Below the pieces are notes generated by a model that saw nothing but the letters and a program-made list of their open reading frames with translations, made no database searches and was not told the origin of the DNA. From contig JAAYGX010000030.1 of NCBI GenBank assembly GCA_012735585.1, forward strand, positions 1 through 64,000: a stretch of 64,000 nt of DNA. Reading direction: 5' to 3'. The translations under genes and the position numbers were made by a program. Below are positions 1 to 51,253 of this stretch, piece after piece. Numbering within the stretch: position 1 is the first letter of the stretch; each line of letters opens with the position of its first letter. Source of the stretch: Tissierella sp. Its GTDB lineage: Bacteria; Bacillota; Clostridia; Tissierellales; Tissierellaceae.

Positions 1-676
1 CTTCTATATTGGTGTTCAAGGCCTTTGTATAATCAACTTTATCCATGTCTATAGACGTAGAGTCCTTTTGATCATATTCAACTATGCTATTTAGTACGGC
101 TGCCATATCCTCTACTGAGTTTGTTATAGGTACGATTTGGTCAAAGGTTGATCTAGCACCTATAACACCATATCTAGAAATCATACCGAAGGTAGGTTTC
201 ATAGAGAATTTTCTAGAATCCTGGGATGTACTTAGTCCCCAAATTGCCCCTTTGCGATCAAGTGTTTTGGAAACAGTTTGTGTTGGAGTAAGTCCAAACT
301 CCTTAACCTTCACTTTTCCAAGAATAATAGTGTCTTCTGCTGATATTCTCTCAACAACTGTAGCATCAAAAATCGGTATATAATTTTCTAAAATTCTACT
401 TCCGGCGCTAGTTAATACTCCCTTTGTTGAAATATCATCTGTAATAATTAGAGGTATACCTGCTAAAGGACCTAATGATTCTTTATTTTTTCTCTTTCTG
501 TCTATTTCTCTAGCCTTACTTATTGCTTCATCTTTTAGTATTAATTTATATATACTAGAATCTGCTGTTTCTTTTTCAATATTTGCGATACATTCTTTTA
601 CAATCTCTTCACTTGAAACTTCATTTAATTCCATCAGCTGTATAAGCTGGGAAATACTTTTATCTATTAAACTCAC
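1..676 (-). CDS. GatA-like amidase paralogue lacking catalytic residues (3' end outside window)
   Basis: Partial gene running off the left edge; about 225 N-terminal codons are visible. It starts at GTG 676 behind GGAGGG (682-687), 11 bp after the aspS-gatC stop, so it is translationally linked to that gene. It aligns along its length with the intact GatA encoded at 4741-6174: the amidase N-terminus, GIPL, SAGSRILENY, FDATVVE, ISRYGV and TFDQI are all recognisable. The catalytic Lys of GIPIGIKDN is replaced (GIPLIITDD), and the stretch carrying the GGSSGGSAAAV and SDTGGSVRQP catalytic serines is missing, reduced to a short GAIWGLSTSQD linker. The frame is open throughout, so this is not random decay. 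Known family: GatA makes ammonia from Gln for Asp-/Glu-tRNA amidation. Inferred: an amidase-dead subunit or scaffold in a second, Asn-specific operon. Confidence 0.75.
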   Translation of the reverse strand, partial: MSLIDKSISQLIQLMELNEVSSEEIVKECIANIEKETADSSIYKLILKDEAISKAREIDRKRKNKESLGPLAGIPLIITDDISTKGVLTSAGSRILENYIPIFDATVVERISAEDTIILGKVKVKEFGLTPTQTVSKTLDRKGAIWGLSTSQDSRKFSMKPTFGMISRYGVIGARSTFDQIVPITNSVEDMAAVLNSIVEYDQKDSTSIDMDKVDYTKALNTNIE

Positions 677-687
677 TTTTATCCCTC

Positions 688-2784
688 CTATTCATTAACA
701 TTTGGTACCAATATATATCCATCTTCTGAGGAAGGAGCATTCAATAATACTTCTTCAACCTTTAAGCTTTTCTTAACTTCATCCGCCCTAGTAACATTAT
801 TAATTGGATGAATATTAATGATTGGATCAAATTTTGCTGCATCTACACGATCTAAAATTGAAATAGACTCAATCAGATCTGTAAATCCATCTTCTAGCTC
901 TTGTATTTCTATTTCACTTAAAGATATCTGTGATAGTTCTGCTAATTCTTCTATATCTATTTTTGACGAGCTAATTATATTGGATTCTTCAGATTTTCTT
1001 TGAGAAGCCATATCACCAGCGATACCTATGCCTAATATATCTAATTGATCTTTGGCAACAGTACTTGGTGCCTCTGTCATAGCACAGCTGGCATCTCTCA
1101 TCTTAGGAAATGCTATTACATCCCTAATGGAATCAGCCTGAGCCATTAGCATTACCAGTCTATCTAATCCAAAGGCAAATCCACCGTGGGGTGGTGTACC
1201 ATATGAAAAAGCTTCTATCATAAATCCAAAACGTTCTTCAATCTCCTCTTTATTAAATCCAAGTGCCTCAAACATTCTTTGTTGAATATCACTTCTATGG
1301 ATTCGAATACTTCCACTACCTAACTCTATACCATTTAATACAAAGTCATAGCTCATAGCATTCATATTAGATAAATCTTCTTTTTTCATAAATTCATCTA
1401 CATCGGCTGGCATTGTAAATGGATGATGCATGGCAATATATCTATTTTCTTCTTCAGACCATTCTAGTAAAGGAAAATCTGTTACTATTAGGAATTTATA
1501 ATCCCATTTGTTTCTTAGACCTAGTTTATCACCTATATCTAAACGTAACCCTCCTAGTGTCTTGTACACTACAGGTAACTCATCGGCACAGAATATTATT
1601 AAATCTCCTGGCTCAGATTTACAAGTTTCGATGATTTCTTAGACTTCTGACTCACTTAAGAATTTAGTAAGTAAAGTCCTTAAATTTCCATCTGGCTCTA
1701 TTGCTATCCATGCCATACCTTTTGCACCATATGAAGTAGCCTTGTCTGTTAATTCATCTATTTCATTTCTAGAAAAACTATTGCCACCTTTTATATTTAA
1801 GGCTCTTACAGCTCCACCTTGATCTACTACATTTCTAAATACTTTAAATCCACATTTTTTTGCTATATCACTTAAATCAACAATTTCCATTCCAAATCGT
1901 AAATCAGGTTTGTCAGATCCATATAGATCCATAGCCTTTTGATATGTTATTCTAGGGAATTTTTCTTTAAAATCCATGTCCATTACTTGAGAAAAAATAT
2001 GTTTAAATAGACCTTCTAGATAGTTTAGTACATCCTCCTGATTTACAAAGGATAGTTCCATATCTACTTGGGTAAATTCTGGCTGCCTATCTGCTCTTAA
2101 ATCTTCATCACGGAAACATCTTGCTATTTGATAGTATCTATCTACACCTGAAACCATCAAAAGTTGTTTAAATATCTGTGGTGACTGAGGTAGTGCATAA
2201 AACTTTCCTTGTTCCATCCTACTAGGCACTAAATAATCCCTGGCACCTTCTGGTGTACTTTTAGTTAAAATCGGAGTTTCTACTTCCATAAAATCCATAT
2301 CATCAAGATATCTTCTTATGGCCTTGGTTGTTTTGTGTCTTAATGCTAAATTATCATATAGGTGTGGTCTCCTAATGTCCAAATATCGATACTTAAGTCT
2401 TAACTCTTCCTTAACATTTATATAGTCTTCTACAGGAAAAGGTAATGTTTTAGACTTAGATAAGATTTCTAAATCAGTAGCTTTAAGCTCTATGGTTCCT
2501 GTAGGGATATTTGGATTATATGTCTCCTCATCCCTTTTTCTGATGACTCCTTGAACCTTAACCACATATTCATTTCTTAGGTTCTCTACATCTAAAAACA
2601 TCTCCTCACCAATATCCTGTAAATCAAAAACTACTTGTAAGATCCCTGTTTTATCTCGTAAATCTAAAAATATTATCCCACCCATATCACGGGTACGCTG
2701 TACCCAACCAGTAACGGTGGATTTTTTTCCTATGTCAGCATCCCTTAAAGATGCACAATAATCTGTTCTGTATAAAGCCTCCAT
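688..2784 (-). pseudogene. aspS: Aspartyl-tRNA synthetase-GatC fusion, interrupted by one in-frame TAA
   Basis: The frame is continuous from ATG 2784 (SD AAAGGAGA) to TAG 688, 698 codons, except for TAA at 1639-1641 (codon 382). Before it lie the OB-fold anticodon domain, motif 1 region (ETPILTKSTPEGARDYLVP), motif 2 (RCFRDEDLRADRQPEFTQ) and part of the GAD insertion. After it come EIIETC, the rest of the GAD domain, motif 3 (GGFAFGLDRLVML), then a GatC domain (about residues 611-698, ending APSSEDGYILVPNVNE). AspRS-GatC fusions are known in some Firmicutes; AspRS charges tRNA-Asp/tRNA-Asn and GatC is the small amidotransferase subunit. Preceded by a T-box. Either a recent pseudogene, a sequence error (a CAA/AAA/GAA codon would restore it), or readthrough. 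An intact aspS elsewhere is expected, as AspRS is essential. Confidence 0.85.
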
Positions 2785-2804
2785 GTTATTTCTCCTTTCT
2801 TTTC

Positions 2805-3095
2805 CAATAAAAAATACCTTCCATCCCCTATAAAAGGGACGAAAGGTATATATTCGCGGTACCACCCAAATTGATTATTATAAATAATAATCCACTCTTA
2901 TTCGATACAGGCTAAAAAGCTTTATATCTACTGCTGTAATGTAGCAGCTACATCTAAGTCTACTTGCTCATGCTTTCGGTTAGAAACTCCCAGATGTTTT
3001 TCAATTAAACTAAAGTACTGGACTCCCACCAATGCCAGCTCTCTTTCACTTATTATTTAATCTACTCTTCTGATCTACGTTTTTAAAATCATATT
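2805..3095 (-). promoter_or_regulatory. T-box riboswitch leader, candidate Asn (AAC) specifier
   Basis: On the minus strand the T-box consensus GGGTGGTACCGCG lies within 2851-2868. A terminator hairpin (2816-2847) followed by a U-rich run comes immediately before the aspS start. Upstream is a Stem I with the AGAGAG internal loop and GGTGGGAG terminal loop flanked by CTGG/CCAG, AAGT/ACTT and ATTAAA/TTTAAT pairings. In my hand fold the specifier loop contains GAAAAACA. AAC (2998-2996) followed by A is the best specifier, which reads asparagine; a GAA (Glu) triplet lies just upstream at 3002-3000. Uncharged tRNA-Asn would then derepress an operon making Asn-tRNA from Asp-tRNA, consistent with the AspRS-GatC product. 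T-box identity is firm; specifier assignment is a hand fold. Confidence 0.9.
2816..2847 (-). terminator. T-box regulatory terminator
   Basis: Arms ACCTTTCGTCCC and GGGGATGGAAGGT around a TTTTATA loop on the minus strand, followed by ATTTTTTATT, placed directly after the T-box sequence. This is the alternative to the antiterminator formed by the T-box bulge. Confidence 0.85.
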
Positions 3096-3309: not shown

Positions 3310-4740
3310 TTATCTTTCTTTTAACTTCTCTAATAAAAGTTTATTTACTACTTGAGGATTGGCCTTTCCTCTTGACTTTTTCATAATTTGACCTATTAAG
3401 AATCCAACAGCCCTATCTTTACCATTTTTAAAATCAATTATGGATTGTTCATTTTCATCCAAAACAGTATCAATCATTCCTTCTAATTCACCTTCATCAC
3501 TGATTTGAATTAGTCCTTGTTCTTTAACGATTGTGTTAGGATCTTTACCTGTATCAAACATATCTCGGAGTACCTTTTTACCAGTATTGTTGTTGATTTT
3601 GCCATCCTTTACTAAAGAGATTAAATCAGCCAATGCTTTGGCACCAAATTTAAGAGAATCAATTTCTAAATCTTCTTCATTGAGTCTTCTTAATACATCA
3701 CCCATAATCCAATTGCTTACCAGCTTTGTATCATTGATGTTTTTAACAGTATCCTCAAAGAAAGCAGCAAGGTCTCTTGATTGTGTCAATACTCCAGCAT
3801 CATATGAACTCAAGTCATATTGACTTATGAATCTTTCCTTTTTCTCATGAGGAAGTTCTGGCATATTATTTTGGATTTCATTGATAAAAGTATCTTCTAA
3901 TATAAATGGCGGTATATCTCCTTCAACTGCAAATCTATAGTCGCTTGCTCCAGCTTTACCTCTCATTAGTACAGTCTCTGCCTTTACTTCATCCCAACGT
4001 CTTGTTTCCTTATCCGTGTTTTCTCCTTTTTTTAGTAGGTCAATATGACGTTCTTCTTCATATTCTATTGATTTAACTACTGATCTAAATGAGTTCAGAT
4101 TTTTTATTTCAGAGATCCTTGTCTTTTGTCCTGTTTCGCTATCTACTACATTTATATTAACATCACATCTTAAGGAACCTTCTTCCATTTTACAATCCGA
4201 TACTTCTATATATTTTAAAGTAGCCCTTAAGTTTTCTAAAAACAATCTAGCTTCTTCTGCAGAATTCATCTCTGGTTTGCTTACAATCTCAATAAGCGGT
4301 ACACCAGCTCTATTGTAGTCTAGTAATGTCTCATCATTTTCCGTATGGATAGACTTTCCTGTATCTTCTTCAATATGGATTCTTTGTAAATGAACTTTCT
4401 TAGTTCCTTCTTCTAATTCAATCTCTATATATCCTTCACTACATATTGGGATTTCATTTTGTGATGTTTGGAATCCCTTAGTCAGGTCTGCATAGAAATA
4501 ATTTTTTCTATCCATCTTTATATGATTGGATATATGAGTGTTAAATGCAGTACCGGCTTTTATAGCATATTCTAATACTCTTTTATTCAACCTAGGAATT
4601 GCACCTGGCAATCCTAAACAAACTGGACAGCAATGACTATTGGCTTCCCCACCAAATTCATTTGTACAGTTGCAAAATATTTTAGTATCTGTCATTAGTT
4701 CCACATGTATTTCTAAACCAATAATAGTTTTATATCTCAA
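3310..4740 (-). CDS. gatB: Aspartyl/glutamyl-tRNA(Asn/Gln) amidotransferase subunit B
   Basis: 476 residues, normal for GatB. It is the kinase and tRNA-binding subunit that phosphorylates the misacylated Asp or Glu and receives ammonia from GatA. Visible features: N-terminal IGLEIHVEL, the metal/Zn motif with CNCTNEFGG and CCPVCLGLPGAIP, the cradle region (DYNRAGVPLIEIVSKP; MEEGSLRCDVNIN), and a C-terminal YqeY-like tail (LIGQIMKKSRGKANPQ). The ATG at 4740 directly abuts the gatA stop (4741-4743), so it is translationally coupled. Last gene of the gatCAB unit; a spacer with a dispersed repeat and the T-box leader follow. Stop is TAA. Confidence 0.97.
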   Translation of the reverse strand: MRYKTIIGLEIHVELMTDTKIFCNCTNEFGGEANSHCCPVCLGLPGAIPRLNKRVLEYAIKAGTAFNTHISNHIKMDRKNYFYADLTKGFQTSQNEIPICSEGYIEIELEEGTKKVHLQRIHIEEDTGKSIHTENDETLLDYNRAGVPLIEIVSKPEMNSAEEARLFLENLRATLKYIEVSDCKMEEGSLRCDVNINVVDSETGQKTRISEIKNLNSFRSVVKSIEYEEERHIDLLKKGENTDKETRRWDEVKAETVLMRGKAGASDYRFAVEGDIPPFILEDTFINEIQNNMPELPHEKKERFISQYDLSSYDAGVLTQSRDLAAFFEDTVKNINDTKLVSNWIMGDVLRRLNEEDLEIDSLKFGAKALADLISLVKDGKINNNTGKKVLRDMFDTGKDPNTIVKEQGLIQISDEGELEGMIDTVLDENEQSIIDFKNGKDRAVGFLIGQIMKKSRGKANPQVVNKLLLEKLKER

Positions 4741-6174
4741 TTATTTCACCATCCCTTCAATTGCAAGTCCAAGATTTATTATGTCTTCTTCACCAAATTT
4801 ATTACCTATGATTTGGATTCCTATTGGTAGTCTATCACCATTAAATAAAGGTAAATTCATAGCACAAAGACCTGCTAGATTTACTGGTACTGTGAACAAA
4901 TCCCCCTTATACATATCAACAGGATTCTCTATTTTATCACCTAGGTTAAATGGCAATGTTGGAGATGTTGGTGAAAGTAATATATCTACATTTTCAAAGG
5001 CTTTTTCAAAATCATTTCTAATCAGTGTTCTAACCTTAAGAGCTTGCATATAATAATCCTCTGCATGATCTTCTCTTAATATATATGTTCCTAGCATAAT
5101 TCTTCTCTTTACTTCTTCACCAAAGGCTTCTGTCCTTGATTTAATGTATAATTCATCTAAAGTTTCATAGTCCTCAGCCCTAAAACCCAATCTTAGTCCA
5201 TCAAATCTAGCTAAATTTGCACTTGCTTCTGCATTTGATATCAATAGATAAGTCTCAAGAGCATATTTTAGATTTGGTAAAGATACTTCCTCTACCATTC
5301 CACCATTTTCTTTTATTAGCTCAATAGTTTTAAAGAAATTATCTTTTACTTGGTTCTCTATTTCTATATCGAATAATTCCTTTGGTATTCCTATTCTAAT
5401 TTTCTTTATATCTACTTCAGTAGATTCCAGATTAAGGTTCAAATCCATACTTACAGAAGTAGGATCTTTTTCATCATATCCAGACAATATGGATAGCATT
5501 AATGCTGCGTCCTCAGTATCCTTAGCTATTACTCCTATTTGATCTAAGGTATTTGCTAACGGAACTAAACCATATCTAGAAATCCTTCCATAGGTTGGCT
5601 TAAGACCTACAACACCACAAAAATTTGCAGGTTGTCTTACAGAACCGCCAGTATCAGACCCAAGGGCTATGGCTACTTGATTAGATGCTACTGCTGCAGC
5701 TGATCCACCTGATGAGCCTCCTGGCACTTTCTTCATATCTAAAGGATTTTTACTTGCTCCAAAATAAGAAGTCTCAGTAGATGAACCCATTGCAAATTCA
5801 TCCATATTCGTCTTACCTATAATAATTCCATCTTCTTTTTTTATAATCTCTACAACTGTAGCATCATAAGGTGATACATAATCTTTGAGCATCTTTGAAC
5901 CACAAGTAGTGACCATATCCTTTGTTACTATATTGTCTTTGATCCCTATGGGAATCCCTGCCAATCTACCTAGCTCTTCCCCATTTTTTATTTTCTCATC
6001 TATTCTAGCCCCTTGAGATCTAGCCCCTTCTTTATCAACAGTAATAAATGCATTGATATCCTTATCTTTCTCTTCAATATGTTTTATATAGGCTTCTACC
6101 ACTTCTGTGGCAGTTATTTCTCTATTTATTATCTTGTCTCTTATATCTCTTGCTTTTAAATCTAATATATCCAC
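4741..6174 (-). CDS. gatA: Aspartyl/glutamyl-tRNA amidotransferase subunit A (intact amidase)
   Basis: About 477 residues. Glutaminase (amidase-signature) subunit delivering ammonia to GatB. The catalytic Ser-cisSer-Lys set is present: Lys in GIPIGIKDN (about residue 80) and the serines in GGSSGGSAAAVAS and SDTGGSVRQPA; GLKPTYGRISRYG and the C-terminal region are normal. I place the start at GTG 6174 because GAGAGGTG at 6181-6188 is well spaced for it; an upstream GTG at 6183 overlaps that SD. Follows gatC by 14 bp. It is the functional counterpart to the degenerate paralogue at the left edge and a useful internal control for that comparison. Confidence 0.97.
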   Translation of the reverse strand: MDILDLKARDIRDKIINREITATEVVEAYIKHIEEKDKDINAFITVDKEGARSQGARIDEKIKNGEELGRLAGIPIGIKDNIVTKDMVTTCGSKMLKDYVSPYDATVVEIIKKEDGIIIGKTNMDEFAMGSSTETSYFGASKNPLDMKKVPGGSSGGSAAAVASNQVAIALGSDTGGSVRQPANFCGVVGLKPTYGRISRYGLVPLANTLDQIGVIAKDTEDAALMLSILSGYDEKDPTSVSMDLNLNLESTEVDIKKIRIGIPKELFDIEIENQVKDNFFKTIELIKENGGMVEEVSLPNLKYALETYLLISNAEASANLARFDGLRLGFRAEDYETLDELYIKSRTEAFGEEVKRRIMLGTYILREDHAEDYYMQALKVRTLIRNDFEKAFENVDILLSPTSPTLPFNLGDKIENPVDMYKGDLFTVPVNLAGLCAMNLPLFNGDRLPIGIQIIGNKFGEEDIINLGLAIEGMVK

Positions 6175-6188
6175 TAATATCACCTCTC

Positions 6189-34566: not shown

Positions 34567-35820
34567 TTAAATTTGTCCAATATCATTTCTATAATTAATA
34601 CCTTGGAAATTGATTTTTCCAATGTTTTTATAGATCTTGTTTCTTGCTACTTCCATAGTGTTTCCAAGAGCAGTAATACTCATTACTCTTCCACCATTAG
34701 TAGTTAGGTCATTGTCTAAATACTTTGTCCCATTGTGAAAAACAATAATTTCTTTATCTATGGTCTCTAAACCAGTAATTTTATATCCTTTTTCATAATT
34801 TCCAGGATATCCTTCTGATGTTGTAACTACTGTTAAACATACATCATCTGTCCATACTAAGTCTGATTGTTCAATGGATCCATCAAGGGATTTTTCTATT
34901 AAATCTACTAAATCACTTTGTAGTCTAGGAAGTAGTACTTCAGTCTCAGGATCACCAAATCTTACATTGAATTCCAAAACCAAAGGCTCTCCATCTACGA
35001 TCATTAGCCCAATAAATAATATTCCATTGAAGAATAAATCATCTTTTTTAAGACCATTGACTATATTATGGATAATATCTTTATCGATTTTTTCCATTAG
35101 TTCATGAGTAAATAGTGGACTTGGAGAATAACATCCTACGCCACCTGTATTTGGTCCTTTATCACCGTCATAGATTTTCTTATAATCCTTTGCACTTTCC
35201 ATTGGAATCACCTTGTCATCAGCTACAAAACATAGCAGGGATGCCTCTATTCCATTTAAAAACTCTTCTATGACTACTGTACTTCCTTCATCACCAAATA
35301 TTTTTTTCTTTAATATATTATCTAAGGTATCTATAGCTTCATCCTTTGAAGCACAGATCACTACACCTTTTCCTAAGCATAGCCCATCAGCCTTTATAAC
35401 CAATGGATAGCTAAACTCTTCTAAACCTTTTACTGCATCATCATAATTATTGAATGTTCTATATTTTGCTGTAGCAACATTATGTCTTTCCATAAATCTT
35501 TTGGAGAAGTCCTTGCTTCCTTCTAACTCTGCTGCCTTTTTATTTGCTCCAAAGATTTTTAATCCCTTTTCCTCAAATCTATCTACCACTCCTAAAACAA
35601 GGGGATCCTCTGGACCAACTATGGTCAGATCAATATTATGATTTAGAGCAAAATTAAGTAAACCATCAATATCATCTGCCTGAATATCAATATTCTCAGC
35701 GACTTCGGCAGTACCACCATTACCTGGTGCACAATAAATCTTCTTTACCTTATTTGACCCTGCCAATTTCCAACATAGTCCGTGTTCACGGCCACCACTA
35801 CCTATAACCAGTAAATTCAT
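34567..35820 (-). CDS. purD: Phosphoribosylamine-glycine ligase
   Basis: 417 residues. Second step of purine synthesis: PRA + Gly + ATP to GAR. ATP-grasp fold with MNLLVIGSGGREHGL, IVGPEDPLVLGVVD, ADGLCLGKGVVI, GPNTGGVGCYSP and EFNVRFGDPETEVLLPRL; all family motifs are present. PRA is labile, so the enzyme would be fed by PurF, whose glutaminase site here is degenerate. 15 bp after purH. Confidence 0.97.
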   Translation of the reverse strand: MNLLVIGSGGREHGLCWKLAGSNKVKKIYCAPGNGGTAEVAENIDIQADDIDGLLNFALNHNIDLTIVGPEDPLVLGVVDRFEEKGLKIFGANKKAAELEGSKDFSKRFMERHNVATAKYRTFNNYDDAVKGLEEFSYPLVIKADGLCLGKGVVICASKDEAIDTLDNILKKKIFGDEGSTVVIEEFLNGIEASLLCFVADDKVIPMESAKDYKKIYDGDKGPNTGGVGCYSPSPLFTHELMEKIDKDIIHNIVNGLKKDDLFFNGILFIGLMIVDGEPLVLEFNVRFGDPETEVLLPRLQSDLVDLIEKSLDGSIEQSDLVWTDDVCLTVVTTSEGYPGNYEKGYKITGLETIDKEIIVFHNGTKYLDNDLTTNGGRVMSITALGNTMEVARNKIYKNIGKINFQGINYRNDIGQI

Positions 35821-35835
35821 GTCTACCTCCTAGTA

Positions 35836-37365
35836 TTAGTGTTTGAAATGTCTTATCCCTGTAAATAGCATAGCTATTCCATTTTTGTCAGCCTCATCTA
35901 TAACTTCTTGATCCTTAATAGAACCTCCAGGTTGAATAACAGCCTTTATACCATTCTTTGCTAATATCTCTATAGAATCTTTAAATGGGAAGAAGCCATC
36001 TGACGCCAATACACTTCCTTCAATCTTTTCCAATCCTCTTTCTATAGCCTCTTCAACAGCCCAGAATCTATTCACTTCTCCTAGACCTATACCTATGGTA
36101 GCTTTGTCCCTAGCCAATACGATTCCATTAGAATTAATATTTTTAGCAGCTTTCCAAGCAAATAATAAATCTTCCATCTCTTTATCAGTGGGAACCCTCT
36201 TGGTCGCAATCTCCATTTCATCTAATAACAAAATACGATCCATGTCTTGAACTAATAATCCACCATATACCTTCTTCATATCCAGTTCATGAATTTCATT
36301 TTCTATATTATCTATTCGGATGAGTCTTATGTTTTTCTTTCCAGTCAGTATTTCAAGTGCTTCTTCAGTAAATCCTGGAGCCAATACTACTTCAATAAAT
36401 ATACTATTGATCATTTCAGCCACATCTTTTTCAATTACTCTATTAGCAGCTACTATGCCACCAAAGATCGATTCCTTATCACATTCATAAGCCTTAATAT
36501 ATGCTTCTAGAAGGGTTTCACCGCTACCTATGCCACAAGGGTTGGAGTGCTTAACTGCCACTACTGTTGGCTCATCAAATTCTTTGAGTGCCTTTATAGC
36601 TCCATTGGCGTCATTGATATTGTTAAAGGATAGCTCTTTTCCATGAAGTTTCTTGCCTGATGCTAATGTACCTTTTACATCCCCTATTTCTCTATAAAAA
36701 GCAGCTTCTTGATGTGGATTTTCTCCATATCTAAGGGCTTGTTCTTTTTTATAAGTCAAAGTCATGGTTTCAGGGAATTTCATCTCATTTATTTCATTGA
36801 AATATTTAGCTATTAAGGCATCATAATATGCTGTATAGTTAAATACTTTTGCTGCCAAGTATTTGTTGGTCTCTTCACTTACCTTATCTGAAGCTTTTAA
36901 TTCATCTATTACTAAATCATAATCCTTAGGATCAACTATAACGGAAACAAATTTATAATTCTTAGCTGCAGCCCTTATCATAGAAGGTCCACCAATATCG
37001 ATATTCTCAATGATCTCATCATGGCTTACTCCTTCCCTTTTAACGGTTTCTTCAAATGGATATAGATTATTTACTACAATGTCTATAGGGCCTATATTCA
37101 TACTATCTACAGTTTTAACATGCTCTTTATCATCTCTTCTGTAAAGTAACCCACCATGTATATATGGGTTCAAAGTCTTGACCCTGCCATCTAATATCTC
37201 TGGAAAGTTGGTAATATCTTCAACTTCTAAAATATCAATTCTTGCTTCCTTTAGTGCTTTAGAAGTTCCGCCAGTAGATATGATCTCCCAACCTAATTCT
37301 TTTAAAGAAGTAGCAAACTCAACGATTCCTTCTTTATCAAATACGCTAATCAATGCCCTTTTCAC
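35836..37365 (-). CDS. purH: Bifunctional AICAR transformylase/IMP cyclohydrolase
   Basis: 509 residues from GTG 37365 (SD AGGAG). IMP cyclohydrolase (MGS-like) domain first (ALISVFDKEGIVEFATSLKELGWEIISTGGT), then the formyltransferase with RYGENPHQEAAFY, KHSNPCGIGSG and QPGGSIKDQEVIDEAD. Last two steps to IMP, using 10-formyl-THF (from Fhs). All expected motifs are intact. Gap of 10 bp to purN. Confidence 0.96.
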   Translation of the reverse strand: MKRALISVFDKEGIVEFATSLKELGWEIISTGGTSKALKEARIDILEVEDITNFPEILDGRVKTLNPYIHGGLLYRRDDKEHVKTVDSMNIGPIDIVVNNLYPFEETVKREGVSHDEIIENIDIGGPSMIRAAAKNYKFVSVIVDPKDYDLVIDELKASDKVSEETNKYLAAKVFNYTAYYDALIAKYFNEINEMKFPETMTLTYKKEQALRYGENPHQEAAFYREIGDVKGTLASGKKLHGKELSFNNINDANGAIKALKEFDEPTVVAVKHSNPCGIGSGETLLEAYIKAYECDKESIFGGIVAANRVIEKDVAEMINSIFIEVVLAPGFTEEALEILTGKKNIRLIRIDNIENEIHELDMKKVYGGLLVQDMDRILLLDEMEIATKRVPTDKEMEDLLFAWKAAKNINSNGIVLARDKATIGIGLGEVNRFWAVEEAIERGLEKIEGSVLASDGFFPFKDSIEILAKNGIKAVIQPGGSIKDQEVIDEADKNGIAMLFTGIRHFKH

Positions 37366-37375
37366 ACAATCACTC

Positions 37376-37993
37376 CTATACAATTTTTACACGTCTGCCT
37401 TCTACAGATATTCTATTATCACTAAATAGTTTTATAGCCTCAACTAATATTTTGTGCTCAATCTCTAAGACCTTCTGCTGTAGACTTTGTACAGTTTCGT
37501 TTTCTGCTACTTCTACGGACCTTTGTAGAATAATCGGACCTGTATCTGTTCCTTCATCGACTATGTGCACCGTTGCTCCAGTTATTTTACATCCATAATC
37601 TAAAACTCCTTTATGAACCTTTTCTCCGTAGTAGCCATCTCCACAAAAACTTGGTATCAAAGAAGGATGTATATTGATGATCCTATTTTTGAATTCCATA
37701 ATAAAGTCAGCAGACAAAATCTTTAAATATCCTGCCAATACGATTAAATCTATTTCTCTGTCTTTAAGCTCTTTTATAAGTTTTAAATCATATTCTTGAT
37801 TGTTTTTAAAATCCTTAGGATTGACATATAGGGTTTCTATACCAGCTTTTTGACCTCGCACTAAACCATAGGCATCTTCCCTGTTGGAGATAATAAGCTC
37901 TATTTTACCATTAATATAACCATGATCTATATTATCTATAATGGCTTGGAGATTGGTGCCTCCACCAGAAATCAAAACCCCTATTTTTAGCAT
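37376..37993 (-). CDS. purN: Phosphoribosylglycinamide formyltransferase
   Basis: 205 residues. Formylates GAR using 10-formyl-THF. Shows ISGGGTNLQAIID at the N-terminus, catalytic Asn/His in NIHPSLIPSF, and Asp in VDEGTDTGPII. ATG 37993 overlaps the purM stop by 7 bp, so it is translationally coupled. Confidence 0.96.
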   Translation of the reverse strand: MLKIGVLISGGGTNLQAIIDNIDHGYINGKIELIISNREDAYGLVRGQKAGIETLYVNPKDFKNNQEYDLKLIKELKDREIDLIVLAGYLKILSADFIMEFKNRIINIHPSLIPSFCGDGYYGEKVHKGVLDYGCKITGATVHIVDEGTDTGPIILQRSVEVAENETVQSLQQKVLEIEHKILVEAIKLFSDNRISVEGRRVKIV

Positions 37994-39015
37994 AGGACTA
38001 CACCCTCATTACCTTTTATAACTCTACCTAATTCATAGAATTTTTCGCACTTTTTCTTTAATTCTTCAGTAACTTTGCTATATTCATCTTTTGAAACGAC
38101 TAGGACCATTCCAACCCCCATATTGAATGTGGAATACATCTCTTCAAGCTCAATATTGCCCCATCTTTGAAGTAAATTGAAGATCTTAGGTGTATCTATT
38201 ACTTCTGTATTGATCTCAGCTGTTAGGCCTTCTGGAAGCATTCTAGGTATGTTTTCAAAGAACCCACCACCTGTTATATGACATAGTCCTCTAATATTGA
38301 AATTATCAACTAAATCATATACTGGATTGGTATATATTCTTGTAGGTATCAATAGTTCTTCACCAATTGTAGTACCTAGTTCAGGAATAAAAGTATCGAT
38401 ATCCATTCCTTCTTTTTCAAAGATGATCTTTCTTACTAATGAATAACCATTACTATGGATTCCTGAGGAAGGTAGACCTATGATATAATCTCCTTCTCCT
38501 ATAGTAGAACCATTAATGATCTTGCTTTTATCTACTGCACCTACTGAAAATCCAGCCACATCATATTCATTATCATTATAGAATCCAGGCATCTCAGCAG
38601 TTTCTCCACCAATTAGGGCACATCCTGCCTTGATACACCCATTAGATACACCTTCTACAATCTTAGCCATAGTTTCAGGCACTAGCTTACCAGTAGCTAT
38701 ATAATCTAAGAAAAATAAAGGCTTAGCCCCTTGGCATAAAATATCATTTACACACATAGCCACACAGTCTTCTCCGATCGTATCGTGTTTGTCCATCATA
38801 AATGCTATTTTCAGCTTAGTTCCTACGCCATCGGTTCCTGATACCAATACTGGTTCTTTAAATTTTCTAATATCCAACTGGAATAATCCTGCAAACCCAC
38901 CGATATCAGATAGTACTCCTGGTACATGAGTCTTTTTAATCATTCCTTTGATTAATTGTACCTGCTTGTAACCAGCTTCCTTATCTACACCTGCATCCTT
39001 ATATGTTAGTGACAT
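37987..39015 (-). CDS. purM: Phosphoribosylformylglycinamidine cyclo-ligase (AIR synthetase)
   Basis: 342 residues from ATG 39015 (SD AAAGGAGG). Converts FGAM to AIR. Motifs: TYKDAGVDKEAG, LVSGTDGVGTKLKIAF, VNDILCQGAKPLFFLDY, GGETAEMPGFY, GLPSSGIHSNGYSLVR and HITGGGFFENIPRML. A longer frame running back into purF is not needed. Follows purF by 1 bp. Confidence 0.97.
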   Translation of the reverse strand: MSLTYKDAGVDKEAGYKQVQLIKGMIKKTHVPGVLSDIGGFAGLFQLDIRKFKEPVLVSGTDGVGTKLKIAFMMDKHDTIGEDCVAMCVNDILCQGAKPLFFLDYIATGKLVPETMAKIVEGVSNGCIKAGCALIGGETAEMPGFYNDNEYDVAGFSVGAVDKSKIINGSTIGEGDYIIGLPSSGIHSNGYSLVRKIIFEKEGMDIDTFIPELGTTIGEELLIPTRIYTNPVYDLVDNFNIRGLCHITGGGFFENIPRMLPEGLTAEINTEVIDTPKIFNLLQRWGNIELEEMYSTFNMGVGMVLVVSKDEYSKVTEELKKKCEKFYELGRVIKGNEGVVLC

Positions 39016-39016
39016 A

Positions 39017-40363
39017 TTAATCCTCCTTTTCAATAGGGTAATTTCCATTGAAACACCCAGTGCAGAATCCATTTTTTTGCCCTGTTGATTCAAGTAAACC
39101 TTCCAATGAAATATATTCCAATGAATCAGCGCCTGTTAATTTACATATCTCTTCCTTAGTATAATTAGCTCCAATAAGATGCTTTTCATTTGGCGTATCC
39201 ATCCCAAGATGGCATGAACGTGTAACTTGAGCAGAACTTATCCTTACATGAACTTCCTTTGCACCTGCATTTTTTAACATTTCAACAGTTCTTTTTATAG
39301 TAGTTCCTCTTACTATGGAGTCATCCACTAAGACCAACCTTTTTCCTTCTACATTTTCCTTTAATGCATTCAGCTTGATCTTTACTCCTTGGTCCCTTAG
39401 CTCCTGTGTAGGTTGAATAAAAGTTCTTCCAACGTATCTATTCTTTACGATACCTTCTGCATAGGGAATTCCTGATTCTTCAGCATAACCAATAGCTGCT
39501 ACAATACCTGAATCAGGCGCACCTATGACTATATCCGCATCTACGGGGTGTTCTCGTGCAAGGACTCTACCAGCTTCATTTCTACTTAGATAGATACTCT
39601 TACCATCTACTTTACTATCTGGTCTGGCAAAATATATGGACTCAAATAGGCATAGACTTCTAGGTTGTGGATCGTTTTTAATAGTTCTTAATCCAGTATG
39701 ATCAATTACTACAATCTCTCCTGGCCCCACATCCCTGACAAATTCAGCACCCATCGTATCAAAGGCACAAGTTTCTGAAGCCAATACATAGCTATTTCTA
39801 AACTTCCCTATGGACAATGGCTTAAGCCCATAAGGGTCTCTAGCACCGATGATTCTATCGTTGGTCATTATAATTAAGGTATATGAACCTCTGATATCTT
39901 CTAGGGCTTTAATTATTGCCTCATTTACATCATCTTTATGATATCTTGCGATTAAGTTTGCTATGACTTCAGCATCTAAATCCGACTGGAATATACTGCC
40001 TTTATCTTCTAACTCATCTCTTAAACTATTAAAATTGACTAATTTGCCATCATGAACCAATGCTAGGGCACCTTTTCTATAACCTACTACTAAAGGCTCT
40101 GCATTTTTTACATTTCTTTCTTGAGAGGAAAATCCATGTCTTACATGACCTAGGGCAATGTTGCCTCTTAATCTTTCCATAACATCACCCAGGAAAACTT
40201 CATGTACCAATCCTAGATCCTTGAAGTAATCCACAAATCCATTATTGTTTACTGCTATTCCTGAACTAATTTGCCCTCTATGTTGTAATCCATATAATCC
40301 ATAATAAATTATCTTAGATACATGATCCATTTCATTGCTATAAATTCCAACAACACCGCTCAA
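39017..40363 (-). CDS. purF: Amidophosphoribosyltransferase with degenerate glutaminase site
   Basis: 448 residues from TTG 40363 (SD AAGGAGG). First committed purine step, PRPP + ammonia donor to phosphoribosylamine. The phosphoribosyltransferase half is intact: PRPP loop LVDDSIVRGTT, KNRYVGRTFIQP and the four Fe-S Cys of Bacillus-type PurF (CLFESIYF, SCHLGMD, CTGC). The N-terminal Ntn glutaminase half is changed at key sites: Ser2 (MSGVVGIYS) where the catalytic Cys of MCG is required, His76 for Tyr in GHVRY, Asp105 and Lys107 for the two Asn of HNGNLVN (oxyanion region). Arg75 and Asp130 remain. No upstream Cys start exists in frame. Likely needs free ammonia (inference). Lies between purE and purM. 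Confidence 0.95.
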   Translation of the reverse strand: MSGVVGIYSNEMDHVSKIIYYGLYGLQHRGQISSGIAVNNNGFVDYFKDLGLVHEVFLGDVMERLRGNIALGHVRHGFSSQERNVKNAEPLVVGYRKGALALVHDGKLVNFNSLRDELEDKGSIFQSDLDAEVIANLIARYHKDDVNEAIIKALEDIRGSYTLIIMTNDRIIGARDPYGLKPLSIGKFRNSYVLASETCAFDTMGAEFVRDVGPGEIVVIDHTGLRTIKNDPQPRSLCLFESIYFARPDSKVDGKSIYLSRNEAGRVLAREHPVDADIVIGAPDSGIVAAIGYAEESGIPYAEGIVKNRYVGRTFIQPTQELRDQGVKIKLNALKENVEGKRLVLVDDSIVRGTTIKRTVEMLKNAGAKEVHVRISSAQVTRSCHLGMDTPNEKHLIGANYTKEEICKLTGADSLEYISLEGLLESTGQKNGFCTGCFNGNYPIEKED

Positions 40364-40375
40364 ATCAGTGCCTCC

Positions 40376-40858
40376 TTATCTAGATTCAAGTTCCCTATTC
40401 ATAGCTTCGACTTCTTCTGCCAGTTGCACTTTGTAGTTCTTAAACTTAGCTCTTAATTCTGGATACTTAACCGATAAAATCTGAGCAGCCAATAGTCCAG
40501 CATTTTCCCCTCCATCAATAGCTACTGTGGCCACTGGAACTCCCTTTGGCATTTGAACTACTGATAGTAAGGAGTCAAGGCCATCCATAGTAGATGACTT
40601 AGCCGGAATACCGATGACAGGTAGTGGCGTTATACCTGCAATAACACCTGCTAAATGTGCCGCCTTACCTGCTATAGCTATAATAACTTCCGTACCATTT
40701 GCCTCTGCATTTTTTGCAAAATCCGCTGCCAAATCCGGGGTTCTATGGGCTGATATTACCTTTACTTCATATTCAATTCCAAAACTATCTAAAATCTTAG
40801 TGGTTTTATCTCCGATTGCTTTGTCTGAAATACTTCCCATAATTATACTAACTTTCAT
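40376..40858 (-). CDS. purE: N5-CAIR mutase (class I PurE)
   Basis: 160 residues. Motifs GSISDKAIGDK, ISAHRTPDLAADF, AGKAAHLAGVIAG and SLLSVVQMPKGVPVATVAID fit class I PurE, which rearranges N5-CAIR (from PurK) to CAIR. No purK lies in this operon; whether it is elsewhere is unknown. The conserved GGAAHLPG is GKAAHLAG here, a mild deviation. 11 bp after purL and 12 bp before purF. Confidence 0.93.
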   Translation of the reverse strand: MKVSIIMGSISDKAIGDKTTKILDSFGIEYEVKVISAHRTPDLAADFAKNAEANGTEVIIAIAGKAAHLAGVIAGITPLPVIGIPAKSSTMDGLDSLLSVVQMPKGVPVATVAIDGGENAGLLAAQILSVKYPELRAKFKNYKVQLAEEVEAMNRELESR

Positions 40859-40869
40859 TCTATCTCCTC

Positions 40870-43800
40870 CTAGTCAAAGTACTTTATACCTGATTCAAAT
40901 ATATTGTGCACACCTTTTATATTCACATTTTTATATAATCCATCATCTATTCTGTCGATTCCAGTTAATGTTCCAAATATATTTCCCCTTTGACAAGATA
41001 AGGATTCAATTCTTAAGTCTGAACCTGTAAGATTTGAACCTGCAACAAACTCAGTTGTTATTTGGTCTAAGGTAACATTACTACCACCTACAGGAAGTAT
41101 CACTCTACCTTCATATGTTGCTAAAGGAGCGGTATATACATCTCCAACTGACATTCCACTCAACCAAGGTGATTGATTGGACCTAACTTTCACATCAACT
41201 AAAGTTGATATAAATCTGTCTGATTGATTATTTGTAATTATTGTATTTACATCTTTAGGGCTGACCTTTCCATTATCTATAAGACCTGATTTGACTAATC
41301 CTAAAAGTCCATTGCCAATTCCTAGTATAAGCCCATCTCTTTGACCGGTATGTCCATCTATGGCTTCTTTTACCAAAGGATTACTCAATATTATTTTCAA
41401 TAAAATCCCACCAGACTCAGGTTCATTTCCAAGTAATGCTCCATCAGGGAAGGCAATGATATTAGATTGATTGATTTTATTAGCCAGTTCTCTATAGGAA
41501 TCTTCTATGCTTTCTTTGCTTAAAGTATTGAATACAAAGGCCTCAACATCTCCACCAGCTTTTTCAAATCTTTGGGTCAATGTATACTCACTGTGGGTGC
41601 CAGTAAATATTGGTATTAAAACTTTAGGCCTAATGTTTTTACTTATGTTTACTTTTTTATATTCATTGATAGCTTTATAATCATCTTCAACTTTTGCCTC
41701 TTCAATTGGGAATACATCTTTTAATGGACTTTCCCATGATTTAAGAAGCTCTTGTAGATTGATGGCCTCATTATTAATTTGAATTTCCCTTGATTCTATA
41801 GTACTTCCTAATACTTCAAAATCAACTCCTTCAAATTCCTTTACTAAGTCAAGTTCTTTTGAAGTCTCTAATACTATGGAACCAAATAAAGGTTTAAATA
41901 GTCTTTCCTTATTCATTGAATCAAATTTGAATCCTATCATATTACCAAAGGCCATCTCTGAAATAGTTCTAGCAATTCCACCATGTTTAACAGTTTGGGC
42001 TGCTTTTATTAATCCTCTATCTACTAATTCTTTTATTTTTGTATAGTTTGCTTTCAGTTGATTCAAATCAACTAATCCATTTTCATCTATATTTAATGGT
42101 ACTAATACTACATTCGTATCTCTTTCTTTAAATTCATTTGAAACTATATTTTGGACCTTATCAGAAGTAACAGCAAAACTGATAATAGTTGGCGGGACAT
42201 CTATATCTTCAAAGGTGCCGCTCATACTGTCCTTGCCACCGATACTTGGTATATCAAGCTCTTTTTGCACTAAGTAAGCACCTAATAATGCAGCTAGTGG
42301 CTTACCCCATTTATTCTTGTCTTCTCCAAGCCTTTCAAAATACTCTTGGAAAGACAGTCTCGCCTTTCTATAATCTCCACCTAATGCAGTGATCTTAGCC
42401 AAGGATTCAATAACTGCATAGTATCCTCCATGGAATGGGCTCCATTTTGATATATTAGGCTCGAATCCATAGGTCATAATTGAGCAGGTATTAGTATTTC
42501 CTTTTAATACAGGAATCTTTGCTACCATACCTTCACTAGGACTAAGAGCATACTTCCCACCATATGGCATTAGTACAGTACCTCCACCTACAGTATGATC
42601 AAAGTTCATAGCTAATCCTTTTTGACTGCCTATATTTAAATCATTCATGTTATCCATGAAAGCATCTTTTATATTATCTACATCAACAGATGTTTCATTC
42701 AGATATCCATAATCTGTTGGTTGCTGAATCCTTACATCCATTTTCTTTCTGATACCATTGGTGTCAAGGAAAGATCTTTCGATATTTACGATCTCTTCAC
42801 CTCTCCAGTTCATAATCAGTCTTTTTTCTTCTGTTACTGTAGCAACTACTGTACCTACTAAATCCTCTTTAACAATTTCATCCATAAATTGATCCACATG
42901 GTCCTTATCTATTACTACTGCCATTCTTTCCTGAGATTCTGATAGGGCTATTTCCGTACCATTTAGACCCGGATATTTTAGTGGTACTTTGTCTAAATCA
43001 ATAGTCACTCCATCTGCTAATTCACCAATAGCTACAGATACACCACCTGCACCAAAGTCATTACAAACTTTAATCATTTTAGATACTTCTTCTTTTCTAA
43101 ATAGACGTAGTATCTTTCTTTCTAATGGTGGGTTTCCTTTTTGGACCTCCGCACCACTTGTGTGCAGTGATTCCTCTGTATGTTCCTTAGATGAGCCTAC
43201 TGCTCCTCCTAAGCCATCTCTACCAGTAGGGCCACCAACCAATATGATTCGGTCTCCTGGCTCTGATTGTCCTCTAAATACCCAATCTTTAGGAGCTGCA
43301 GCTACCAATGCACCACATTCCATTCGTTTTGCCACATAACCTTCGTCATATATTTCCTTGACAAATCCAGTTGCAGCACCTATCTGATTGCCATAGGAGC
43401 TAAAACCTTCCATAGCTTGAGTCGTAATCTTTCTTTGAGGTAATTTCCCTGGTAATGTATCTTCATAAGCTTCTCTTGGATCAGCAGCTCCAGTGATTCT
43501 CATACCTTGATATACAAAGGATCTACCTGATAGTGGATCCCTAATAGCTCCACCTAAGCATGTGGATGCTCCTCCAATTGGTTCCATTTCAGTTGGATGA
43601 TTGTGGGTTTCATTTTTAAACATCAATAACCATCTTTCGGTTTTACCATCGATATCAACATCTATTTCTATACTTGCAGCATTTACTTCATCGGATTTTT
43701 CTTTATCATCAAGAAGGCCTTTCTTTTGGATCTCCTTCATATTAATAGTCGCTAAATCCATTAAAGATACTGCTCTTTCTCTGTCTTCATATACATATTT

Positions 43801-44568
43801 TCTTGAGGATAAATACGCTTTTATAGTTGACTCAAATATTTCTTTATATTTACCCTCTTCTAATTCTATATCTGTTAATTGGGTCATAAATGTTGTATGT
43901 CTACAATGATCAGACCAGTATGTGTCAATTAGCTTGATTTCAACGATATATGGATTTCTTCCTACTTCTTTATAATACTTTTGGCAAAATAAGAGGTCGT
44001 CCATATCCATGCCGATACCATACTTATCTTTAAAGTTTTTTATTTCATCTTCATTAAATTCAATAAATCCATCAATTACTTCTACATCTTCTACTGTATC
44101 TGATTCCTTCTCATAGGTAATACTGTTTAATTCTACTTCTCTTGACTCTATAGGGTTGATGTAATAGGACTTGATTTTGTCTAAGTTTTCTTGAGGAATT
44201 TCATTTACTATGATTATTTTGGAGTGTAGTGCTTCTTTGTCTTCATCAAGTAAAAAATTCTTTACCAAGAAATTCATGGAATCTTCTCTTTGATTGAATT
44301 GTCCTTTTAACATTTCTACTCTAAATGCTAATTCATTTTCGGCGATTTGAAGTTGGTCATTAATACGATACAATTGTGATTCATTTAGAACACTATCAAC
44401 CACAAGATTTTTTTCACTTTCATCCACATTGATCAAATCATAAACATTGACCACACGAACATATTCCAATTCTCTAATTCTTAAGTAATCCCTAAACTCT
44501 CTTAACAACTTCTTGCTTTCAGTACATAGAAACTTAGCCTTTTCCACATAAACTCTTTTATAATCCAA
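40870..44568 (-). CDS. purL: Phosphoribosylformylglycinamidine synthase (single-chain, clade II) with dead glutaminase triad
   Basis: 1232 residues, the long single-chain Clostridia/Streptococcus type. N-terminal PurS-like part, then the ATP-using synthetase: FKNETHNHPTEMEPIGGAS, FVYQGMRITGAADP, CNDFGAGGVSVAIGELADG, SIGGKDSMSGTF, FSPHGG-like FHGGYYAV. The C-terminal class I glutaminase domain (about 995-1232) is complete in length, but its nucleophile elbow reads LGIGNGLLGL with Gly1085 where Cys is required, and the His-x-Glu is Gly1203-Ile-Asp1205 (TLTGIDRID). The whole Cys-His-Glu triad is lost. The enzyme likely uses ammonia directly for FGAR to FGAM (inference). First gene of the operon, behind the tandem riboswitch. 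Confidence 0.96.
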   Translation of the reverse strand: MDYKRVYVEKAKFLCTESKKLLREFRDYLRIRELEYVRVVNVYDLINVDESEKNLVVDSVLNESQLYRINDQLQIAENELAFRVEMLKGQFNQREDSMNFLVKNFLLDEDKEALHSKIIIVNEIPQENLDKIKSYYINPIESREVELNSITYEKESDTVEDVEVIDGFIEFNEDEIKNFKDKYGIGMDMDDLLFCQKYYKEVGRNPYIVEIKLIDTYWSDHCRHTTFMTQLTDIELEEGKYKEIFESTIKAYLSSRKYVYEDRERAVSLMDLATINMKEIQKKGLLDDKEKSDEVNAASIEIDVDIDGKTERWLLMFKNETHNHPTEMEPIGGASTCLGGAIRDPLSGRSFVYQGMRITGAADPREAYEDTLPGKLPQRKITTQAMEGFSSYGNQIGAATGFVKEIYDEGYVAKRMECGALVAAAPKDWVFRGQSEPGDRIILVGGPTGRDGLGGAVGSSKEHTEESLHTSGAEVQKGNPPLERKILRLFRKEEVSKMIKVCNDFGAGGVSVAIGELADGVTIDLDKVPLKYPGLNGTEIALSESQERMAVVIDKDHVDQFMDEIVKEDLVGTVVATVTEEKRLIMNWRGEEIVNIERSFLDTNGIRKKMDVRIQQPTDYGYLNETSVDVDNIKDAFMDNMNDLNIGSQKGLAMNFDHTVGGGTVLMPYGGKYALSPSEGMVAKIPVLKGNTNTCSIMTYGFEPNISKWSPFHGGYYAVIESLAKITALGGDYRKARLSFQEYFERLGEDKNKWGKPLAALLGAYLVQKELDIPSIGGKDSMSGTFEDIDVPPTIISFAVTSDKVQNIVSNEFKERDTNVVLVPLNIDENGLVDLNQLKANYTKIKELVDRGLIKAAQTVKHGGIARTISEMAFGNMIGFKFDSMNKERLFKPLFGSIVLETSKELDLVKEFEGVDFEVLGSTIESREIQINNEAINLQELLKSWESPLKDVFPIEEAKVEDDYKAINEYKKVNISKNIRPKVLIPIFTGTHSEYTLTQRFEKAGGDVEAFVFNTLSKESIEDSYRELANKINQSNIIAFPDGALLGNEPESGGILLKIILSNPLVKEAIDGHTGQRDGLILGIGNGLLGLVKSGLIDNGKVSPKDVNTIITNNQSDRFISTLVDVKVRSNQSPWLSGMSVGDVYTAPLATYEGRVILPVGGSNVTLDQITTEFVAGSNLTGSDLRIESLSCQRGNIFGTLTGIDRIDDGLYKNVNIKGVHNIFESGIKYFD

Positions 44569-49585: not shown

Positions 49586-51253
49586 TTATACTATTTGCTT
49601 TAACGCTGTTCTTAAATCATCTTCTGCTGTGCTTATTGTTTGTATATCAAATGTATCAACTAGATATTGTAATACATTTGGTGATAAGAATGCTGGCAGT
49701 GTAGGTCCCAGATATATACCTTTCACTCCAAGATTTAAAAGAGCTAGTAAATCTGCTAGAGCTTTTTGTTCGTACCATGAAAGTATTATTGTTAGTGGTA
49801 GACCATTTACACTAGTTTCAAAAGCATCTGCTAAGGCAGTAGCTATTTTGATTGCAGCGTATGAGTCGTTACATTGACCTACGTCTAGTAGTCTTGGGAG
49901 TCCTGCAACTGTTCCAAAGTCTAATTTATTGAATCTATATTTACCACAAGCTAAAGTAAGTATTACACAATCTTCTGGGACTTTTTCAGCAAATTCTGTA
50001 TAATAGTTTCTTCCCGGTCTTGCTCCATCGCATCCACCTATTAGGAAGAAATGTCTTATTTGTCCATCTTTAACAGCTCCAACGATTTTCTCTGCATGGG
50101 ATAGTGTTGCATGATGTCCAAAACCTACTGTGATTTCATGCGGGTCTTCATCTTCTTTAAACCCACCTAATTCTAAAGCTTTATTTATAACTTCACTGAA
50201 ATCTTTCTCACTATGATTATTTGCAGTATCATCACTAAAGTCAATATGTTGAATTCCTTCCCAACCTACTACATTAGTTGAAAATATCCTATCTTTATAA
50301 CTTTCCCTCGGTCTCATCAAGCAGTTTGTAGTCATTAGAATTGCTCCTGGAAGGTCATCAAATTCTGCTTGTTGGTTTTGCCATGCTGATCCGTAGTTTC
50401 CTACTAAATGTTTAAACTTCTTAAGTCTTGGATATCCGTGGGATGGAATCATTTCTCCATGGGTATATACATTTATACCTTTTCCTTCAGTTTGTTCTAG
50501 TAGCATCTCTAGATCCCTTAGGTCATGACCTGAAACTACAATAAATGGCCCTTTCTTAGTTCTTACATTTACTTTGTTTGGAGTAGGATTTTCATAAGTA
50601 CTTGTATTAGCATCATCTAGTACTCTCATGACGACTTCACTCATTGCCCCAGTTCTCATAGTCATACGTATTAATTCTTCTACAGTTAAATTAGGATTGG
50701 TTGTAGCTTCTAATCCTATAAAATAGAAGTGATCCACTTCATCACTAGTATATCCTAGAACCCTTGCCTGATGACCATAAGCACTGATTCCTTTTAAACC
50801 ATAGACTATTGTCCATATTAAAGAACGATAATCTGGATCAAGATCATCATCATACATGATCCCTGCTTTTTCAGCGTCCTTCAGCATTTCTTCCTTTGTA
50901 GCTGCTAAATTATAGCTTGCGTATTCATTATAGTCACCTTTTGGTGCCTTGCTTCTTAAATTTTGTTTTATTACTTGGGACTCTTTTAGAAGTTTAACAT
51001 GATTATCTGCATCAAAGTTAACATTTGTTAAGGTAGTAAATAGACTATTTTCTACAAAAGCTACTATATCTTTATCAATTTTTTCACCTTTATCTATAAG
51101 AGCCTTTGCATAGGTAGATATTCCTTTTAGTTGATAAATTAATAAGTCTTGAAGTCCTGCTATTTCTGGAGTTTTTCCACATACTCCTAGTTTGGTGCAA
51201 CCTTTACCTCCTACTGTTTGTTCACACTGAAAACAAAACATTGCATTTTCCAC
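49586..51253 (-). CDS. hcp: Hybrid cluster protein (hydroxylamine reductase), copy 1
   Basis: 555 residues. N-terminal Fe-S ligand set CFQCEQTVGGKGC...GVCGK (Cx2Cx8Cx5C). Hybrid-cluster ligands can be seen: His in SGHDLRDLE, Cys in TTNCLMRPRESY, GGCDGARPGRNY, LACGKYRFN, GQCNDSYAA and Glu/Lys in SWYEQKA. Reduces hydroxylamine or NO-type substrates; linked to nitrosative stress. Adjacent paralogue at 51455-53107. Each gene has its own terminator, so they may be expressed separately. Confidence 0.96.
   Translation of the reverse strand: MENAMFCFQCEQTVGGKGCTKLGVCGKTPEIAGLQDLLIYQLKGISTYAKALIDKGEKIDKDIVAFVENSLFTTLTNVNFDADNHVKLLKESQVIKQNLRSKAPKGDYNEYASYNLAATKEEMLKDAEKAGIMYDDDLDPDYRSLIWTIVYGLKGISAYGHQARVLGYTSDEVDHFYFIGLEATTNPNLTVEELIRMTMRTGAMSEVVMRVLDDANTSTYENPTPNKVNVRTKKGPFIVVSGHDLRDLEMLLEQTEGKGINVYTHGEMIPSHGYPRLKKFKHLVGNYGSAWQNQQAEFDDLPGAILMTTNCLMRPRESYKDRIFSTNVVGWEGIQHIDFSDDTANNHSEKDFSEVINKALELGGFKEDEDPHEITVGFGHHATLSHAEKIVGAVKDGQIRHFFLIGGCDGARPGRNYYTEFAEKVPEDCVILTLACGKYRFNKLDFGTVAGLPRLLDVGQCNDSYAAIKIATALADAFETSVNGLPLTIILSWYEQKALADLLALLNLGVKGIYLGPTLPAFLSPNVLQYLVDTFDIQTISTAEDDLRTALKQIV

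Follow-up and report, generated by a model that had tools for sequence, protein, structure and literature searches.

Nucleotide synthesis is generally taken to draw its nitrogen from glutamine, regarded as the universal donor. The purL gene of a Tissierella sp. genome (assembly GCA_012735585.1) raises the question of where its FGAM synthase takes nitrogen from, as it encodes a full-length glutaminase domain in which the catalytic triad is lost. The gene lies with the other purine genes in the window, by which we mean the whole 64,000-nucleotide stretch of contig JAAYGX010000030.1 that was analysed. The relevant features are the following.

40870..44568, reverse strand: purL, FGAM synthase (TIGR01857), 1232 aa (open reading frame and profile match)
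40873..41658, reverse strand: class I glutaminase domain (GATase_5) of PurL, full length, triad lost (profile and fold)
41314..41316, reverse strand: PurL codon 1085, GGC, nucleophile Cys replaced by Gly in LGIGNG (motif positions recomputed)
40951..40968, reverse strand: LTGIDR in PurL where MGHSER is expected, His replaced by Gly1203 and Glu by Asp1205 (motif positions recomputed)
41419..41448, reverse strand: PurL oxyanion loop PDGALLGNEP, compared with PGGFSxGDEP (motif positions recomputed)
40376..40858, reverse strand: purE (open reading frame and profile)
39017..40363, reverse strand: purF, amidophosphoribosyltransferase (TIGR01134), Cys1 replaced by Ser and Asn101 by Asp (open reading frame, profile, alignment)
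40358..40360, reverse strand: PurF codon AGC, Cys1 replaced by Ser (motif positions recomputed)
40049..40051, reverse strand: PurF Asn101 (mature-enzyme numbering) replaced by Asp, motif LVHDGK (alignment)
37987..39093, reverse strand: purM (open reading frame and profile)
37376..37993, reverse strand: purN (by sequence)
35836..37383, reverse strand: purH (by sequence)
34567..35820, reverse strand: purD (by sequence)

Glutaminase sites of PurL and PurF

PurL matched TIGR01857 over residues 4–1231 with 1484.1 bits, above the NCBI cut-off of 1057.05, and retains its synthetase residues. The PF13507 (GATase_5) profile covers residues 980–1231, the whole length of the domain. The LGIGNG segment (residues 1082–1087, window 41308–41325) lacks the GxCxG nucleophile elbow of class I glutamine amidotransferases (GATases), LTGIDR (residues 1201–1206) stands where live relatives have M-[GA]-H-S-E-R, and the oxyanion loop (residues 1041–1050) is altered; in place of the Cys-His-Glu triad are Gly1085, Gly1203 and Asp1205. 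Two further motifs have changed from HGEGR to TYEGR and from GTNCEYD to GTHSEYT. The first-pass annotation had described a conserved synthetase domain, a full-length glutaminase domain and each of the three altered motifs, all of which were reproduced by profile matching and recomputed motif positions. Its statement that all three triad residues were lost independently is wrong for PurL, because the replacements are common to the whole clade (see below) and hence inherited. In its sequence, PurL resembles ammonia-specific amidotransferases of the CPS1 type, in which the catalytic Cys is replaced and the domain retained.

An AlphaFold2 model of the glutaminase domain (pLDDT 86.5) superimposes on known PurL and PurQ structures with Z scores of 26–28, those against PurL being 27–28, and rmsd values of 2.0–2.5 over 211–238 residues, and the dead domain is thus predicted to have the class I GATase fold.

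PurF, encoded two genes downstream of purL with the gene start (TTG)-AGC-GGT, matched TIGR01134 over its full length (473 bits, cut-off 350) and B. subtilis PurF (1ao0) likewise (E 1.7e-128). We take Cys1 to be the nucleophile, Asn101 the oxyanion residue, and an Arg and an Asp the binding residues for glutamine. Like the B. subtilis enzyme (1ao0, 1gph), this PurF retains the Arg and Asp of the glutamine site and the PRPP motif VDDSIVRG; unlike it (Cys1, Asn101), it has Ser1 and Asp101. Residues that define the hydrolysis of glutamine are therefore missing from each of the two amidotransferases in the purine operon. The PurF structure model, built from 14 alignment rows (pLDDT 72), is too weak for reading the geometry of Ser1 and Asp101.

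Other amidotransferases and glutamine synthetase in the genome

The source assembly, a draft of 237 contigs and 3.0 Mb, is 97.3% complete. The separate purQ that might have supplied PurL was looked for across this genome and was not found: PF13507 matches PurL only at E<=1, which leaves no second GATase_5 domain, and no second live copy of PurL or PurF was found either. PurF is the sole GATase_6 protein, so the genome has neither GlmS nor AsnB. Two proteins match PF00117, namely PyrG and a PuuD-like hydrolase. The nucleophile elbow of PyrG reads GIALGMQ, with Cys replaced by Ala382 and the HPE motif kept; the hydrolase has an intact GICRG and is not a synthetase. CarA, TrpG, HisH and a GuaA glutaminase were not found in the genome by PF00117. 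GuaA, of ∼310 aa and encoded beside guaB, begins at its ATP-pyrophosphatase domain without a GATase domain. No glutamine synthetase (GS; PF00120) was detected in the source genome or in either of its two congeners. The glutaminase-dead PurL inferred in the first-pass annotation is supported by these data but was too narrow a description, since PurF, PyrG and GuaA have also lost glutamine use. Conservation of the synthetase and transferase parts is good (PurL 1484 bits, PurF 473 bits), which indicates that the enzymes themselves are kept.

The window also carries genes for tRNA amidation:

4741..6183, reverse strand: gatA of GatCAB, with its catalytic Lys and cis-Ser/Ser in place; this is the tRNA glutaminase that the window still has
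3310..4740, reverse strand: gatB (by sequence)
688..2865, reverse strand: fused aspS-gatC, interrupted by a single in-frame TAA (1639–1641)
1..676, reverse strand: second gatA-like gene, cut by the window and contig edge, Lys replaced by Thr and the segment with both Ser deleted

The possibility that gatA in the complete gatC-gatA-gatB cluster is dead too was rejected, as its triad is kept; its loop SSGYYDAYY is degenerate. The dead gatA paralogue sits downstream of the aspS-gatC fusion, which apart from the TAA is open over 725 codons and is open in congeners. In the congener G002 the same dead gatA is complete after aspS-gatC and is followed by a second gatB, and a related dead form occurs in G007; besides the window, the paralogue is read at L306 (732–2036, reverse strand) and L308 (541–1881, forward strand). 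This suggests that there is a further tRNA amidotransferase, one that has no glutaminase, and that it may use ammonia only. Elsewhere in the window, two adjacent near-duplicate genes resembling hydroxylamine reductase (hybrid cluster protein) lie on the reverse strand at 49586–51253 and 51455–53107.

Distribution and order of the losses among relatives

The PurL state was compared in 60 genomes around the source genome. Dead PurL (LGIG[NSAEDT]G, DR for ER) is found almost throughout family f1 and partly in neighbouring families, and live PurL (LGICNG, HSER) in other families of the same order; outgroup PurL of the same type retains the Cys-His-Glu triad. All loci in the main dead clade (∼34) carry the Cys-to-Gly change, which is thus more than chance or sequencing error, and 71 PurL loci outside that clade retain [LI]G[IVF]CNG. 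The clade includes Tissierellaceae and the cultured [Clostridium] ultunense; names found among the relatives are Tissierellia MAGs, Tissierellaceae bacterium SM1-B8.1, Tepidimicrobium sp. and [Clostridium] ultunense DSM 10521.

In a tree of 108 sequences built from the synthetase domain alone, the dead enzymes form one main clade with support 1.0, and its live sister comes from G039 and G053. As judged by this tree, the main clade is the product of one ancestral loss. Two more separate losses appear on it, one in G058 (Cys to Ser) and one in G075 together with a Halothermothrix sp. MAG. At the separately changed loci L086 (G058), L118 and L264 (G075), where Cys has become Ser or Gly, the H-x-E-R motif remains. 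Genus g12 carries both dead and live copies of PurL or PurF (L027 and L088 versus L081 in G013; L082 versus L083 in G019), and family f4 has PurL open frames of 1641–1649 aa, ∼400 aa above the usual length (G030 C3:1436805-1440464; G047 C1:1263125-1266790).

The glutaminase domain is full length across the entire main dead clade. Relative to the synthetase domain its rate of divergence there is 1.37, compared with 0.75 in live enzymes, a ∼1.8-fold faster evolution. The faster rate together with the full length and predicted fold indicates that the dead domain is under weakened constraint that has not vanished, which is what a structural part would show.

Ser1 and Asp101 are near-invariant in PurF of the dead clade. 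A tree built from the phosphoribosyltransferase part groups G321 (Ser1/Asp101) and G230 (Cys1/Asn101) as sisters (support 0.99), and the Ser1/Asp101 pair therefore arose at least twice; Ser codons of the AGY and TCA kinds suggest more separate Cys-to-Ser changes. PurF of G039 and G053 (L026, L028) combines a retained Cys1 with Asp or Ser as residue 101 and an altered GHVRY motif, a state that may represent the onset of decay. In other Clostridia, PurF-like genes close to live purL (L159, L162, L167) encode products that start with MGG(F/V)(F/I)G, have Gly at position 1 and share ∼30% identity with PurF.

Intermediate states are found in extant genomes. G039 lacks GS and has a vestigial GuaA glutaminase domain, a PurF with Cys1 but Asp101, and a live PurL. 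In C. ultunense and two MAGs, PurL is dead and PurF has Cys1 but Asp101. In most f1 genomes PurL and PurF (Ser1/Asp101) are both dead and PyrG is live. The PyrG Cys is also lost in the genus of the window (to Ala), in g11 and G007 (to Ser) and in G004 and G008 (to Gly); the PyrG tree shows these as four losses. The GuaA domain is complete with a good PF00117 score in, for example, G011, full length with Cys replaced by Gly in G003, G032 and G048, reduced to remnants of ∼110–125 aa in G015, G026, G028 and G039, and wholly lost in the source genome, G001, G004, G008, G010 and G012. Read from these extant sequences, the decay of PurF, GuaA and PyrG is a stepwise one, with GuaA providing a series of fossil domains. 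The AsnB-like protein of G002 also begins with Ser. In f1 genomes without an ordinary GS, a GS-like protein of 630–650 aa is encoded near the purine operon (L072 in G011).

GlmS is known to be unable to use ammonia. It was considered as a further victim and rejected, as Cys1 is kept wherever GlmS was read; MCGIVG is retained in the GS-less G003, G005 and G010 and also in G025, G048 and G057. The pattern is that enzymes capable of using NH3 lose their glutaminase, and GlmS, which is not, keeps its own or is absent as in the source genome. The PyrG Cys is likewise retained in some GS-less relatives (G003, G005, G010, G014, G020), and its retention along with that of the GlmS Cys indicates that some glutamine is still there, presumably imported.

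Among 392 class-wide genomes of at least 95% completeness, GS is absent in 60, 40 of these having been deduced from gaps in the list. PurF with Ser1/Asp101 was present in 8 of the 21 GS-less genomes with a standard PurF and in none of the 18 GS-bearing controls read (Fisher p 0.004, kinship ignored). Most GS-less members of other families have a live PurF, so GS loss does not force decay; as a sufficient cause it was rejected, many small GS-less genomes having kept a live PurF.

Proposed ammonia-only synthesis and competing explanations

We consider it very probable that PurL is an ammonia-only FGAM synthase within a genome-wide switch from glutamine to free ammonia. Its synthetase domain would form FGAM from FGAR, ATP and free NH3/NH4+, and its glutaminase domain would have ceased to produce ammonia and would persist as a folded structural element. 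Relaxed selection is the simplest account of the switch, beginning after the lineage lost GS in habitats rich in ammonia: the NH3-accepting GuaA, PurL, PurF and PyrG, and locally AsnB and the aspS-linked GatA, lost their glutaminase sites singly and in turn, through point changes of the nucleophile or deletion of the domain. The ammonia-loving anaerobes of this family probably build nucleotides straight from free ammonia, and we infer that high ammonia and GS loss were the drivers. Several observations run against parts of this account. Ser1/Asp101 is invariant in dead PurF, which free decay does not predict, and live PurL or PurF stands beside dead copies in G013 and G019. The Cys kept in PyrG and GlmS of some GS-less relatives, and the live PurF of most GS-less members of other families, also weigh against it. 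A broader version is tentative and may well prove wrong: nucleotide synthesis would be wholly off glutamine and tRNA-dependent amide synthesis partly so, with PurF, PurL, GuaA and PyrG NH3-only and GS and GlmS gone, AspRS-GatC with the dead GatA would amidate Asp-tRNA(Asn) with free ammonia, and the recurrent Ser1/Asp101 of PurF would mark an adaptation for NH4+ uptake.

The dead sites could instead have been repurposed, with Ser1/Asp101 of PurF and the new PurL residues (GTHGEY, TKEGR, SIDR) forming an ammonium entry port to the old channel, so that the dead domains would be active NH4+ collectors and not passive scaffolds. The near-invariance of Ser1 and Asp101, their renewed origin in G321 next to the Cys1/Asn101 sister G230, the two kinds of Ser codon (AGY, TCA) pointing to several separate changes, and invariant columns particular to the dead PurL domain all fit this idea, which we nevertheless think unlikely: Ser and Asp are readily reached through single-step codon neighbours and the rules of Met removal, the PyrG Cys was replaced by Ala, Ser or Gly, and GuaA dropped the domain. 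Decay of the whole gene set, with purine synthesis made dispensable by salvage and PurL and PurF heading for loss, would agree with the purine permease and nucleoside-type ABC transporter genes adjoining the operon and with the faster evolution of the dead PurL domain. It is improbable given that purE-L-F-M-N-H-D are all intact open frames in the window, PurL is full length clade-wide, the synthetase residues and VDDSIVRG are retained, and the same losses affect PyrG and GuaA, which purine uptake does not replace likewise. Enzymes split into PurL, PurQ and PurS are known, PurQ being the homologous subunit (3d54), and a separate glutaminase might feed PurL in trans and leave the enzyme dependent on glutamine; this is highly improbable in a genome that has no PurQ or other GATase_5, whose only class I GATases are the dead PyrG and the PuuD-like hydrolase, and in which GS is missing and the PurF, PyrG and GuaA sites were lost in parallel. 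The 237-contig draft and the nearby aspS with its in-frame stop might raise the suspicion of sequencing or assembly error, which is refuted by the loss of the same residues in dozens of assemblies, including the single-contig G020, G021 and G032 and C. ultunense DSM 10521. Ammonia-only synthesis remains the preferred explanation.

There are precedents for its parts. Human CPS1, with Cys replaced by Ser (Ser294), uses ammonia only and keeps the inactive domain (PMC4655335), and PfGMPS C89A retains NH3 activity, the C89A/C113A form having a lower Km for NH4Cl (PMC9312489). As in animal CPS1, a class I GATase domain is kept here with its nucleophile Cys replaced; CPS1 is one enzyme of animal urea synthesis, whereas here several bacterial enzymes of nucleotide synthesis are affected and GS is lost too. 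PurL resembles clade II PurL (TIGR01857) in its full domain order, synthetase motifs and operon context, and differs in the replaced triad and pocket motifs and the faster evolution of that domain. GuaA resembles the archaeal two-subunit GMP synthetase in having an ATP-pyrophosphatase part without a fused GATase, but there is no separate GATase subunit here and relatives lose the fused domain stepwise. The ammonia-tolerant C. ultunense, T. acetatoxydans and S. schinkii, which oxidise acetate syntrophically, likewise lack GS, assimilate nitrogen via glutamate dehydrogenase and occupy ammonia-rich niches (PMC5924567, PMC5113046); those papers do not mention amidotransferase decay, which was found here for C. 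ultunense PurL. No report of ammonia-only PurF, PurL or PyrG or of family-wide GATase loss was found in the open-access literature, most subscription journals lying outside the scope of the search. GS loss in such bacteria was known before, and the amidotransferase decay is apparently undescribed in that literature.

If the ammonia-only explanation is true, a free-living lineage, having lost GS and later the glutaminase sites in four of its nucleotide enzymes, would show that nitrogen assimilation can do without its glutamine arm where ammonia is abundant. The lineage would supply natural ammonia-only PurF, PurL, PyrG and GuaA in every stage of decay, and with them a genomic marker of organisms specialised on high ammonia in digesters and guts. 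These enzymes are predicted to be naturally insensitive to the glutamine analogues DON, acivicin and azaserine, for which a cultured organism, C. ultunense, is available for testing.
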